Source: Thermococcus sp. P6 (lineage in GTDB: Archaea; Methanobacteriota_B; Thermococci; Thermococcales; Thermococcaceae). Taken from it: DNA of 64,000 bases. The DNA lies in assembly GCF_002214525.1 (NCBI RefSeq), contig NZ_CP015104.1, positions 496,001 to 560,000 on the forward strand. Direction: 5' to 3'. The notes beneath the pieces were generated by a model, which was given only the letters and a program-made list of their open reading frames with translations, did not search any database and was not told the origin of the DNA. Numbering within the stretch: position 1 is the first letter of the stretch; each line of letters starts with the position of its first letter. A program made the position numbers and the translations under genes. This document shows positions 11,314-20,184 of the stretch, one piece after another.

Positions 11314-11868
11314 TCACTCCGCCAGCTCGAACCTTGCCATCGTCTCGTAGATCGGTCCCCTCGGCGTAAGGGTGCTCCTCTTCAGCTCTATCGCCTCAAC
11401 GGTGAACTCCCCGAAGTCTTCGTTCGCGAGATCCCTGAGGGCCATCGCAAGCTCGAGCTTATCCTTCACGAACTTCACCCTGCCGATGGTTACGTGGGCC
11501 ACGAAGTTTTTCTCCCTTTTGAAGCCCAGTTTTCTCATCTCCCGCTCCACGTCCCTGGCTATAGCGTTTATTCCCCCGTCATTCTCTATTCCCGCCCAGA
11601 TCACCCTCACGTAATTCGGGTTCGGGAAGACGCCTATCCCCTTAACCCGGACGCGGTGCTTTTTGTGCTTCTTCGCTATCCCCTCAAGGGCTTCCATGAC
11701 GTCCCTCGCCCGTGCGTCGTCTATCTCACCGAGGAACTTAAGGGTCACGTGAAAGTTCTCCCTCTCGACGAACTTTATCTTTGCCGCCTTCGTTCCGATC
11801 CTCTGCTGGGCCCTGACAAGGTTATCCCTGACTTCGTCACTCACTTCTATGGCTATGAAGGCTCTCAT
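11314..11868 (-). CDS. thpR: RNA 2',3'-cyclic phosphodiesterase
   Basis: A 184-residue member of the LigT/2H phosphoesterase family that hydrolyses 2',3'-cyclic phosphates at RNA ends. Both catalytic H-x-T/S tetrapeptides are present: HVTLKFLG starting at His40 and HVTIGRVK near residue 126. The RBS GGTGGTGGT lies directly before ATG 11868. It is followed immediately by cca, so the pair acts on tRNA/RNA ends. The first part of this gene and its leader exist again as a decayed copy at 12623-12769. Confidence 0.93.
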
Positions 11869-11940
11869 ACCACCACCGGAATAGTTCCCCCGGGAGTGGT
11901 TAAAAGGGTTTTCTGCCTACGCCCCGGTTCATCAACGGGG
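11788..11940 (-). repeat. Copy 1 of a duplicated thpR 5'-end segment
   Basis: This segment covers the first 27 codons of thpR plus about 72 bases upstream. It aligns with 12623-12769 over its whole length in the same orientation, with identical stretches such as CGATCCTCTGCTGG and ATCAACGGGG. By eye identity is about 80 percent with small indels. Copy 1 is functional; copy 2 is not. Confidence 0.85.
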
Positions 11941-11943
11941 TAG

Positions 11944-12552
11944 TTAAATAAACAGCTTAAGAATTGTTCCTACCAAGGGGACCGCAAGGTTGTCATCTAA
12001 AAATGCCTGATATTCCGCCAGCGTTAGTATGATTCCCCAAACCACTTTCAGGGGCCAGGAAAACTCCGGAAGGACCAACGCGGATATCAAAAGGGTTGAG
12101 AGAAAATAACCCAGACTACCGCTCCAGTGTTTTTTTAATTTCACATTATGGCCGTTTCTTCTAAAATAAGCGAATCTAATCACGCCGGTAACACCGTCAC
12201 TTATTGCCATGGCCAGCAGAATCGCCGTTGCATAGCTCTTAGGGAGGGCAAAAACCACTAAAGATGCCGAAAATGCGAAAAAAACTTCTCCATAGTTTGA
12301 TTTTATTTGATACCATCCAAGTTTGTTCTTTTTTATGTGAAATATCAGCTGGACCAACCCAAAAATAAACGCTGCGGGAGAAAATACCTCTCTGGGGATC
12401 TGGTCAAAATAGTACAGGATTGCTGCAGGAACGATGCTAAAATGGATTATTTTCCTGTTTATCCACGCATACTCTTCCCCCAGATACCTCGTAAAATATA
12501 TTGAGGCCAAGATTGGAAGTGCTGCCAGAATAACCGCCGTGATTATATCCAT
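11944..12552 (-). CDS. Dolichol kinase / phosphatidate cytidylyltransferase-like membrane protein
   Basis: A 202-residue protein with about six membrane segments that resembles the CTP-dependent polyprenol/dolichol kinase (SEC59) and CDP-diglyceride synthase superfamily. Recognisable elements are RKIIHFS near the N-terminus, SDGVTGVIR in the middle, KHWSGSLGYF, and DDNLAVPLVG at the C-terminus. It could phosphorylate a polyprenol used as glycan carrier. The ATG at 12552 follows GGGGGGCAGGTC, and TATA-like CTTTAAATG lies about 35 bases upstream; an ATG at 12579 is too close to that box. It is more A/T-rich than its neighbours and flanked by the two copies of the thpR segment, a sign of insertion. 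Confidence 0.72.
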   Translation of the reverse strand: MDIITAVILAALPILASIYFTRYLGEEYAWINRKIIHFSIVPAAILYYFDQIPREVFSPAAFIFGLVQLIFHIKKNKLGWYQIKSNYGEVFFAFSASLVVFALPKSYATAILLAMAISDGVTGVIRFAYFRRNGHNVKLKKHWSGSLGYFLSTLLISALVLPEFSWPLKVVWGIILTLAEYQAFLDDNLAVPLVGTILKLFI

Positions 12553-12622
12553 GACCTGCCCCCCGTAATAGAGGGTCATTATTCATTTAAAGATTTCCCT
12601 CTCAAAGAACCCTATCCCCGGT

Positions 12623-12769
12623 CTTCGTTTCGATCCTCTGCTGGACCCTGAAGGGATCATCGGGATTCGTCGCTCACTTCTATGGCCATGAAGGCTCTCA
12701 CACCACGGGATAGTTCCTCCGAGGGTTGTTAAAAGGATTTTTGCCTACGGCTTCAGGTCATCAACGGGG
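12623..12769 (-). repeat. Copy 2 of the duplicated thpR 5'-end segment (decayed)
   Basis: A degenerate second copy of 11788-11940. It includes the remnant of the thpR start (TATGGCCATGAAGGC on the plus strand) and the leader, but no open thpR frame. Its right end overlaps the last eight or so codons of the ABC ATPase gene (12745-12769), so the leader of the real thpR probably derives from what was once the end of this ATPase gene. Confidence 0.85.
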
Positions 12770-13359
12770 ATGCAGTTCAGACTGTCTACCGGTCTCCGGG
12801 AGGTTACGAGAACCGCACCATCCTTAGTGAGCTCTCGGATAATGGTCTTAACAACGTCCTCTCCTCCCTCGTCGATTCCTATAACCGGATCGTCGAGGAG
12901 TGTCAGCTTCCTCTCGAGAACGTAGGCCGTCAGAAGCTGGACCTTTCTCCGCTGTCCCTGAGAGAGCTCCTTTATCGGGCGGTTGTAGAGATGTTCAAGC
13001 CCCAAAAATTCCAGACCTCTGGAGATCCTCTCTTCGTCCGGTTTCTCACCGTAGATGTCCGAGATCATGTTTACATAGTCCTTCACCCTCAGCTCGATCG
13101 GGAGGGATATCTCCTCGGGAAGGAAAAACACCTCCCTCATAACCGGCTTTCCCCTCCCCGGCTTCTTCCTGAGTATCCTGACCTCCCCTGAGAAGGGTTC
13201 CCTGAGTCCTGCAATAGTTTTCAGAAAGGTTGTTTTGCCCGTCCCGTTTTCTCCGTAAACGATTGCATGTTCTCCTTCCCTTAACCTCAGAGAGGCCTTT
13301 AAAAGGGGCCTATCGTACCCGCAGACTAGTTCCCTTATAACAAGTACCTCATTACTCAA
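12745..13359 (-). CDS. ABC transporter ATP-binding protein
   Basis: A 204-residue ABC ATPase with Walker A YGENGTGKTT (about residues 35-44), signature LSQGQRRKV and Walker B LTLLDDPVIGID. It powers the transporter formed with the membrane proteins upstream. The start appears to be TTG 13359, overlapping the stop of the previous gene, with GGGAGGGATGAGGA as RBS; the nearby ATG at 13352 is out of frame. The Walker B region has Pro in place of the usual Glu after the Asp pair (DDPV), which could lower ATP hydrolysis. Last gene of a four-gene operon. Confidence 0.88.
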   Translation of the reverse strand: MSNEVLVIRELVCGYDRPLLKASLRLREGEHAIVYGENGTGKTTFLKTIAGLREPFSGEVRILRKKPGRGKPVMREVFFLPEEISLPIELRVKDYVNMISDIYGEKPDEERISRGLEFLGLEHLYNRPIKELSQGQRRKVQLLTAYVLERKLTLLDDPVIGIDEGGEDVVKTIIRELTKDGAVLVTSRRPVDSLNCIPVDDLKP

Positions 13360-13756
13360 TCCTCATCCCTCCCACTCCCGCAACGTCCTCTGGCAGAGCT
13401 ATGAGATGAAGGAGGAAGGGGAACGCTATGAGGGAATCGTAGCAGACTACCAGCAATCCGATCGATCCAAGAACCTCAGCCGGGAGGATGGCGGAGAGGA
13501 ACACCATCCCCGGAGAGACTTCCTTTTCCACGGTGATCTCAAAAAACCGCCCTTCTCTAAAGCTGAACCCATCATCGGGAAGAAGAACAACGTGCAGAAA
13601 CTCATGAACGGCGAATGTTAGGGGCAGGAGTGATGCCGAAGCTACCAGTCTGAGACCCAGAGCTGGCCATACGAATAGGAATGGAAGGGCCCCCAAGAGC
13701 GGAACCCAGAGCAGTCGTGTGAACAGGACTTTGGGTATTACTTCGGATTTTTTCAT
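13352..13756 (-). CDS. Membrane zincin-like protein with HExxH motif
   Basis: A 134-residue protein with about four hydrophobic segments and the motif FAVHEFLHVVLLPDD, an HExxH zinc-binding signature placed at a membrane boundary. This resembles the DUF3267 putative zincin peptidases. It may be an integral membrane metalloprotease, or a non-catalytic relative. ATG 13756 overlaps the upstream stop as ATGA and has GGAGGAAGAGG as RBS, so translation is coupled. Its position inside an ABC operon suggests it processes or handles the exported substrate (inference). Confidence 0.62.
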   Translation of the reverse strand: MKKSEVIPKVLFTRLLWVPLLGALPFLFVWPALGLRLVASASLLPLTFAVHEFLHVVLLPDDGFSFREGRFFEITVEKEVSPGMVFLSAILPAEVLGSIGLLVVCYDSLIAFPFLLHLIALPEDVAGVGGMRIE

Positions 13757-14829
13757 ATCCTCTTCCTCCATGCATCGATATCGTAAAGTGAAACCGAGAC
13801 AAAGAACCCCAGAGAAACCACGACATACAACGGAACATCCGGAAGTAGATGCACCAGTACGAGATAGGAAAGGTAGGAGTAGCCCGTCAGGCGTGAATCA
13901 GAGCCAGATGGAAGCGCAACGTTAGATAATGCTCCGAGTACACCGAACTTTATGGCATTTTCCATGGAGATCGACAGATGGTTGAGGAACGTTAGACTTA
14001 AGGACACGGGAATCGCAACCGCCATGGCCAGAGCAAATCCGGCAGTCCTCCTGATTATGGGGGAGCCAACCATAGCCCTCAGATAATCAACGCTTGATTC
14101 ACCGTTTCTCATACCATAAACAGCCATATAGGGCAGGGAGATGGAAACTATGGTGAATGCCATGAAACCAACGTAATGGAGGGGCTCGAAGTCGGGGTTC
14201 AGAAAGATTACACTACCATCCGAGATAAAGACGCTCATCTCCCCGGGATAAGCAGTATCGAAGGCGTAGACGACCCCCATTAAAGGAACCACATACCTCA
14301 GGTTTATCTCAAAGCCCCTGAATGTTATCCTCGCCGGCATGCCCGTTATTAACCACTTAAATCCATGGATAAGGTACGGAACGGTCAACGCAACGAAGCT
14401 CTGGGCCCTGAGGTCGCCGCAGCCAGCGGGTATGAAGACGAGGGAGAGGGGGAAAGTCACCAACGCCAGTCTCGAACCTGCGGAGAGGAGGGAGACGAGC
14501 CCTATGGAAAGGAGGGCCAGAAAGACCGGCAGGAATCCCTTCAGTGAGAGAAGGAGTGGAAGAACGAGGGGGATAAGACCCAGAGCCGTGAGCAGGGCCA
14601 TTCTTTCCATCGAGGCCGGAAGGTTCAGGAGATGGGCATGAATTCTTAGAGTTCTCTTAGGGTCGATGAGGTTCATAACAGCCTGGGAGATTATGATAAC
14701 AGCAAGGAGCACGTAGAGATCCATTCCATCTCCCCGCGGGAGTTTAAACTTCACAAGTGAGATTAAAACTACGAGAAAAACGTACGCACGACTTCTTATC
14801 AGGGTCTTAAAATAAAAGTAGGGGAGCAT
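13753..14829 (-). CDS. Polytopic membrane protein, probable ABC permease
   Basis: A 358-residue protein with about ten hydrophobic segments and no named family that I recognise. Its position directly before the zincin and ATPase genes in one operon makes it the likely membrane component of the transporter. There is an N-terminal stretch MLPYFYFKTLIRSRAY of the kind seen in ABC-2 type exporters. ATG 14829 with GTGAGGG upstream is preferred over TTG 14835. The substrate is unknown. Confidence 0.6.
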   Translation of the reverse strand: MLPYFYFKTLIRSRAYVFLVVLISLVKFKLPRGDGMDLYVLLAVIIISQAVMNLIDPKRTLRIHAHLLNLPASMERMALLTALGLIPLVLPLLLSLKGFLPVFLALLSIGLVSLLSAGSRLALVTFPLSLVFIPAGCGDLRAQSFVALTVPYLIHGFKWLITGMPARITFRGFEINLRYVVPLMGVVYAFDTAYPGEMSVFISDGSVIFLNPDFEPLHYVGFMAFTIVSISLPYMAVYGMRNGESSVDYLRAMVGSPIIRRTAGFALAMAVAIPVSLSLTFLNHLSISMENAIKFGVLGALSNVALPSGSDSRLTGYSYLSYLVLVHLLPDVPLYVVVSLGFFVSVSLYDIDAWRKRI

Positions 14830-14838
14830 ATCCAACCC

Positions 14839-15291
14839 TCACAAGAGGGACAGCAGTGTTTTGACGATGGCGGCACATACGCACCTAATTTCAAAGAGCG
14901 TCCACGAGAGTCTTACGTTAGTTCCGCACTCCTTCACCGGATTCGGAGAGCAGACCACTTTCTTGCAGTAGCCGCAGGCTCCTCCGTAGAGCAGGAGGAC
15001 GGTGATCGCCAGAACCACTATTATGACTACCGGTCCAGCGTAGTAATAAGCTGGATTTCCCCTTTTACGGGCCAGACTTTCACCGGCGTAGGCGATGACA
15101 ACCCCGATGGTCCCGCCAATGAGGAGCGCCACCAATCCGTTCACCCTGTAACCACCGCTAACCACCTCGGTCCACGGAAGCCCTATTCCATTCATCCTCA
15201 GGTAGGCACTGACCACGCTGAAGGCGGCGAAGCTCAGGAGGCCGGTTAGAGCGTAGTAGGCCGTTCTTACCACCGGACTCTGCCGCTTCAT
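14839..15291 (-). CDS. Small membrane protein with a Cys-rich C-terminal region
   Basis: A 150-residue protein with three or four membrane segments. After the third segment comes a short region with seven cysteines (ACGYCKKVVC, then ECG, then RCVC) and a final hydrophobic helix. No family recognised. The Cys cluster could bind metal or form disulfides outside the cell. It opens the operon 14839-12745: GGGTGCGGGA is the RBS and AAATTTATAGG (about 15325-15335, minus strand) the TATA box. Confidence 0.6.
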   Translation of the reverse strand: MKRQSPVVRTAYYALTGLLSFAAFSVVSAYLRMNGIGLPWTEVVSGGYRVNGLVALLIGGTIGVVIAYAGESLARKRGNPAYYYAGPVVIIVVLAITVLLLYGGACGYCKKVVCSPNPVKECGTNVRLSWTLFEIRCVCAAIVKTLLSLL

Positions 15292-15455
15292 TCCCGCACC
15301 CCCAGATAGTTTGACGATTGATCCTATAAATTTTTTCCTTCATTGAGCATAAACATCCATACTACTTTTTACTTACGTATGACCTAATCCTGATCCAGAA
15401 TTGGATAGTTGATAGAAAAAGATAAAATTTTATACGTAAATAAAGAGTAAAAAGC

Positions 15456-15917
15456 TCACTCCCTCACGACAACCGGGAACTCCTCCCACGGGAAGACTAT
15501 CCACTTGTCGGTCCTGAATACGTAGAAGTCCGGAACAACCGAAGTCCACGGCTTCATGCTGAGGCAGGCGATCTTTATCTCGCTTGCTCCAGCCTTCTCG
15601 ACCTCCTCCCTCACGACCTCCAGCGTCTTTCCGGTGTCGCTCACGTCATCCACTATAACGACCCTTTTTCCCTCCAGCGAGCCGTGGAGCGGGATCGTTA
15701 TCACCGGCTTCTCCATCCTCTCCTCGATGTCCCTGTAGAACTTCACGTCTATCACCTTAACCTCGACGTCCCCCAGTATGTGGCTCAACCTGACCGCAGG
15801 TATTAGGCCTCCCCTCGCAATGCCGACTATTACATCAGGCCTGTAATCCCTCAGCTTATCGGCCAGTGAAAAGATTGCCCTGTCCACCTGCCACCACGTG
15901 AGGTAAACCTTGTCCAT
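15456..15917 (-). CDS. Purine phosphoribosyltransferase (Gpt-like)
   Basis: A 153-residue type I phosphoribosyltransferase. The PRPP-binding motif is VVIVDDVSDTGKTL at about residues 86-99, preceded by the PPi loop VGIARGGLIPAV. It resembles archaeal xanthine/hypoxanthine/guanine salvage enzymes; which base is preferred is not evident. GGGTGTTGGA precedes ATG 15917, and TATA-like CCTTAAACC is about 30 bases upstream. T-rich runs follow the stop on the minus strand, consistent with archaeal termination. Confidence 0.88.
   Translation of the reverse strand: MDKVYLTWWQVDRAIFSLADKLRDYRPDVIVGIARGGLIPAVRLSHILGDVEVKVIDVKFYRDIEERMEKPVITIPLHGSLEGKRVVIVDDVSDTGKTLEVVREEVEKAGASEIKIACLSMKPWTSVVPDFYVFRTDKWIVFPWEEFPVVVRE

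Positions 15918-16038: not shown

Positions 16039-20184
<4,146 letters not shown>

Follow-up and report, generated by a model that had tools for sequence, protein, structure and literature searches.

Analysis of a 64,000-nucleotide stretch of the Thermococcus sp. P6 genome (hereafter, the window) points to a four-gene operon that on balance probably encodes a dedicated pathway for making and secreting a membrane-derived, Cys-rich peptide, with a TMcin-like organisation and a putative role in antagonism of close relatives. ORF calls and translations place four ORFs on the minus strand at positions 12745-15291, encoding a Cys-rich transmembrane (TM) protein that we treat as the precursor, a polytopic permease, a membrane protein with an HExxH motif, and an ABC ATPase (Table 1). 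The precursor and permease genes are separated by a 3-nt gap, and the HExxH and ATPase genes overlap by 8 nt. The HExxH gene overlaps the permease gene by 4 nt when it is started at Met6, or by 19 nt with the longest ORF; its relatives begin at the position of the window Met6, corresponding to a protein of 134 aa. A TATA-like AAAAATTTATA is located upstream of the first operon gene, and similar A/T-rich boxes are found at most of the other loci. The original prediction had described four tightly coupled genes, and its ORFs, junctions, HExxH motif (HEFLH) and DDPV motif were all confirmed. Chance does not account for the arrangement, as it recurs intact and in unchanged gene order at seven loci in other Thermococcaceae.

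Table 1. Features of the operon and its surroundings in the window
Feature	Positions	Strand	Description
Precursor-like Cys-rich TM protein	15291-14839	-	150 aa; heads the operon; ORF and translation
Cys-rich C-terminal segment GGACGYCKKVVCSPNPVKECGTNVRLSWTLFEIRCVCAAIVKTLLSLL	14839..14985	-	Putatively released part (TM3 included or not)
Polytopic permease	14835-13753	-	360 aa; ~12 helical segments; TTG start
HExxH membrane protein, 4 TM	13771-13352 (longest ORF); 13756-13352 (from Met6)	-	139 aa (longest ORF); 134 aa (from Met6)
ABC ATPase	13359-12745	-	204 aa; TTG start; Pfam ABC_tran 5e-23
TATA-like archaeal promoter (AAAAAATTTATAGG) and leader	15292..15345	-	Upstream of the precursor gene; sequence
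Inserted segment	11869..15455	.	Operon and unrelated membrane gene; flank comparison

The intact operon, in the order precursor, permease, HExxH protein and ATPase in every case, was found in 8 of 94 Thermococcaceae genomes, spanning four GTDB genera. A single HExxH query identified only two more genomes among the 94 of the family, both with the full operon; sub-threshold DUF3267 matches led to two further operons of a different subtype, and a five-row precursor profile added three more operons and two remnants. Profiles of the precursor, permease and protease, run against the phylum's full set of 115 genomes, agree on the eight intact operons and revealed no intact partial gene sets, the permease profile matching only the eight operons and one decayed copy. 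Two weak matches to the HExxH profile, in genomes G052 and G084, were rejected as relatives once their loci had been read. The window operon and those of genomes G071 and G049 form type A, and the other five form type B. Decayed single pieces are present in three further genomes, two of which (G008 and G009) hold precursor N-termini. The third (G012, genus g3) holds a decayed permease fragment (locus L113, 4137-4859) with 91% identity to the permease of G071; the other three operon genes are gone there, pointing to a recent transfer between genera followed by quick loss. Single-sequence scans of wider genome contigs gave no match to the HExxH protein or the Cys-rich C-terminus, and nothing related to the window HExxH protein, to a type B precursor or permease, or to the operon DNA turned up in a plasmid collection.

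In the window, the operon is part of an insert between a 2'-5' RNA ligase-like gene (11314-11868) and a phosphoribosyltransferase gene (15456-15917). At least nine Thermococcus genomes have no insert at this hot spot, with about 40 bp separating the flanking genes, and in others the site is occupied by different cargo. A degenerate direct repeat of ~130-150 bp, corresponding to the start region of the RNA ligase-like gene, is found at 11788-11940 and 12623-12769. Its copies, which are 73-93% identical in three blocks, flank a membrane-protein gene (11944-12579), and the second copy stands between that gene and the operon, suggesting serial insertions at the hot spot, as if the membrane-protein gene had been inserted along with a copy of its own target. 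This gene was considered as a part of the operon and rejected, as it is absent from all other loci read. Taken together, the patchy presence in 8 of 94 genomes, the three decayed remnants and the empty sites are what would be expected of an accessory locus for competition. Beyond the phosphoribosyltransferase gene, the window also contains a ribonucleotide reductase ORF (16039-20121, 1360 aa) with an apparent intein (CVDGNARI ... VHNTG).

The HEFLH motif of the window HExxH protein is located in TM2. The original prediction had proposed conservation of this motif as a check, and HExxH is indeed invariant in all eight operons, within a TM helix of a protein with about four TM segments. The candidate third zinc ligand is the Asp in PEDVAG of TM4; by eye, all eight proteins have a distal Asp close to where the last helix ends, in a region where types A and B align ambiguously. 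The window protein matched Pfam DUF3267 (PF11667) with E=2.9e-4 and a score of 21.6 bits, below the Pfam gathering threshold of 27.1. Searched singly, all scored weakly: four of the eight operon proteins matched DUF3267 and five matched Peptidase_M50 (PF02163), the best E being about 1e-4. The features held in common with these two families are the HExxH within a TM helix, the four TM segments and the distal acidic residue. In contrast to classical site-2 proteases (S2P), the operon protein is very short (134-142 aa) and has neither the PDZ region nor the pair of gating helices. The best match of the type A protease profile was to TmcP, the protease of the TMcin pathway (hhalign, 79.5% probability over 88 columns, 31% identity), in an alignment that reaches the distal P-x-D region; control profiles (permease, precursor, TmcC and TmcE) all gave values below 1% against the protease. 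The next matches to the protease profile outside the operons, phylum-wide, were mostly classical S2Ps. Most Thermococcales DUF3267 proteins are longer than the operon protease and score low against it, and the neighbourhoods of non-operon DUF3267 genes were read at a subset of loci. These sequence comparisons identify the HExxH protein as a putative S2P/DUF3267-like protease, closest to TmcP.

The precursor contains TM1 (residues 6-33), a beta-hairpin (41-50), TM2 (52-77) and TM3 (85-110), with a C-terminal segment, residues about 103-150, that harbors six cysteines. Homologues are encoded in all seven other intact operons. AlphaFold2 (AF2) modelling with the eight sequences gave a pLDDT of about 80 for the TM1-hairpin-TM2-TM3 region and below 50 for the Cys region, and the charge distribution weakly fits an orientation with the N-terminus inside and the C-terminus outside. 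Pfam searches with the precursors returned scattered weak hits only. In most pairwise comparisons conservation is highest in the Cys-rich C-terminus, although the N-terminus diverges. Specifically, the C-terminal ~45 residues of type A show 81-90% amino acid identity between loci, compared to 58-64% for the precursor N-terminus and 38-62% for the permease, protease and ATPase. The type B C-terminus has the same ACG..C....C...C...C.C pattern as type A. The pattern is reversed in the sole close pair of operons (L061 6525-6977 and L085 2318-2770), with 14 nonsynonymous and 2 synonymous changes in the Cys segment and a ratio of 72:64 for the remaining three genes (Fisher p=0.008). This sequence-level excess of amino acid change in the Cys segment alone, as in diversifying toxins, is suggestive and comes from one pair. 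The conservation across types A and B, combined with the changes in the close pair, therefore argues that the C-terminus is a functional product and not a loop of a transporter subunit, and the probable role of the Cys-rich protein is that of substrate, not of accessory subunit.

The extent of the conserved region bears on what might be released. In type B the conserved block begins in the outer half of TM3, and a peak of conservation from there onwards, rather than from the TM3 start, would suit an alternative that we consider unlikely, in which the protease cuts TM3 at its outer end and just a soluble, Cys-rich peptide of 35-47 residues is secreted, whether as a signal or as a toxin resembling halocin or SdpC, outside any TMcin-type pathway, the membrane part staying behind, perhaps for immunity. 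Such release has precedent in halocin C8 and SdpC, which are C-terminal Cys-containing peptides released from larger precursors. However, some conservation persists in the first half of TM3, none of the eight precursors matched NCBIfam, where a halocin-type model would appear, and a peptide that is already outside would not need an ABC pair. Moreover, S2P-type proteases make their cuts in the membrane or close to it, and in the case of TmcP the leader is taken off N-terminal to the TM helix (PMC13252029).

An as yet unseen short precursor had been expected in the original prediction. None is encoded at the eight loci, and the Cys-rich membrane protein is itself the likely precursor. The broader proposal of peptide maturation and export is supported by the retained HExxH motif, the strict linkage to the ABC pair and the peptide-like Cys C-terminus; what it does not need is a separate short precursor. 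The YydFGHIJ (epipeptide EPE) system of Bacillus subtilis likewise has a membrane zinc protease and an ABC pair together with a small gene product. A signal or pheromone exporter of this kind is nevertheless highly improbable, given that a radical SAM epimerase and a short soluble precursor are absent at all eight operon loci.

The permease has 9-12 hydrophobic segments by sequence and about 12 helices in a low-confidence AF2 model. In keeping with the original prediction, for which a match to a characterised transporter family would have counted as contrary evidence, it matches no characterised transporter family and has no match in Pfam or NCBIfam. PDB sequence searches gave no match, and fold searches with the precursor and permease AF2 models, the latter a poor model, found none. 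The ATPase of the window contains Walker A (GENGTGKTT), LSQGQ and Walker B (LLDDP, in LLDDPVIGID) motifs, and LSQGQ and DDP are invariant in all eight operons. In all eight, however, the catalytic Glu is replaced by Asp (DDP versus DE(P/S) in TmcB) and the H-loop His by Arg, unlike in bacterial TmcB (n=3 in the motif table), where the usual Glu and H-loop His are kept. Thus, the energetics of transport must differ. The joint change of E to D and H to R, present in every copy, provides a clean natural case for asking how an exporter is powered.

Altered catalytic residues in the ABC subunits are also compatible with there being no peptide pathway at all, the Cys-rich protein instead belonging permanently to a transporter or sensor as one of its subunits, with the HExxH protein as its regulator, in a metal or redox function or in resistance to a rival's peptide. 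Three TM helices could make a stable subunit and the cysteines could bind metal. We nonetheless find this explanation distinctly unlikely, as the close-pair diversification is limited to the Cys segment, the distribution is patchy and mobile with decay, and the HExxH motif is strictly kept in a protein that matches a peptide-processing protease.

On the favored reading, that of a secreted membrane-derived peptide, the 150-aa protein would enter the membrane so that the N-terminus stays inside the cell and the Cys-rich C-terminus is exposed on the outer face, and its cysteines may form disulfides there. The two N-terminal helices and the beta-hairpin, by their likeness to TmcE, would constitute a built-in escort, and the peptide part would consist of TM3 and the Cys-rich segment. 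The S2P-like HExxH protein would cut between TM2 and TM3 or inside TM3, and the permease with two ABC subunits would extract and export the product. Judging from the models and the bacterial analogy, a fusion of escort and precursor in one protein appears to be the simplest reading. The product would have antimicrobial action, its putative use being most likely the killing or inhibition of close relatives. A separate immunity gene was not recognised, and the data speak neither for nor against immunity as the main role, which the original prediction had also raised.

The original prediction held that such a system was not described for these archaea. Consistent with this, the literature searched contained no archaeal description, but the same logic has been described in bacteria (PMC12328743, PMC13252029). 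We tentatively raise the possibility that the operon represents the first archaeal membrane-embedded peptide-weapon pathway, in which a six-Cys TM-helix peptide with a fused escort is matured by an S2P, exported by a non-canonical ABC system and used in warfare among hyperthermophilic Thermococcales. If true, membrane-embedded peptide biosynthesis would extend to a second domain of life, and the Thermococcales, in genera amenable to genetics, would gain a candidate peptide for antagonism.

Compared to halocin C8 and the archaeocins, the operon is similarly archaeal and similarly encodes a larger precursor with a Cys-rich C-terminal segment; it differs in that TM3 runs straight into the Cys segment and in that the protease and ABC pair are encoded in the same operon. 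The TMcin pathway, tmcABCPE, which yields a TM-helix bacteriocin that is secreted, pore-forming and antimicrobial, is known from Staphylococcus aureus G1905 and other Gram-positives, to which its reports are confined (Nat Commun 2025 and bioRxiv 2026; PMC12328743, PMC13252029). In that pathway TmcE, a protein whose two TM helices are separated by a beta-sheet, is required for cleavage by TmcP and is proposed to remain with the product (PMC13252029). A TMcin-type plasmid cluster of Paraclostridium (L092 8496-10910) encodes two HExxH membrane proteins, one of them fused to a PqqD-like domain, and includes a thioredoxin-like gene.

As judged from sequence, the archaeal pathway would work like TMcin, and we do not place it as a member because the precursor showed no homology to TmcA (hhalign, 0.7%; shuffled-alignment test, p 0.14-0.83) and the ATPase departs from the canonical form. 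Comparisons of the precursor with TmcE and of the permease with TmcC also gave no significant sequence similarity. Further differences are that the operon is archaeal and without a DsbA gene, that the 2-TM element and the precursor are one polypeptide, that there are six cysteines rather than two, that the gene order is precursor-permease-protease-ATPase and that the permease is about 100 aa shorter. The list of parts nevertheless fits the TMcin pathway. Both have a 4-TM S2P/DUF3267-like HExxH protease, an ABC ATPase with a single-chain permease, and an accessory, mobile locus. In the operon, TM3 and six cysteines would, by sequence, correspond to the TMcin precursor TM helix with its extracellular Cys-containing C-terminus, the permease with its probable 12 or so TM segments may correspond to TmcC, and the predicted 2-TM element with a small beta structure may correspond to TmcE. 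The N-terminal half of the precursor was modelled by AF2 as TM, beta-hairpin, TM, which resembles the published description of TmcE; with TM3 added, the modelled order of elements is that published for TmcE plus TmcA (PMC13252029). These parallel archaeal parts would offer a test of the TmcE escort, which may be either a self-standing component or a module open to fusion with its cargo.
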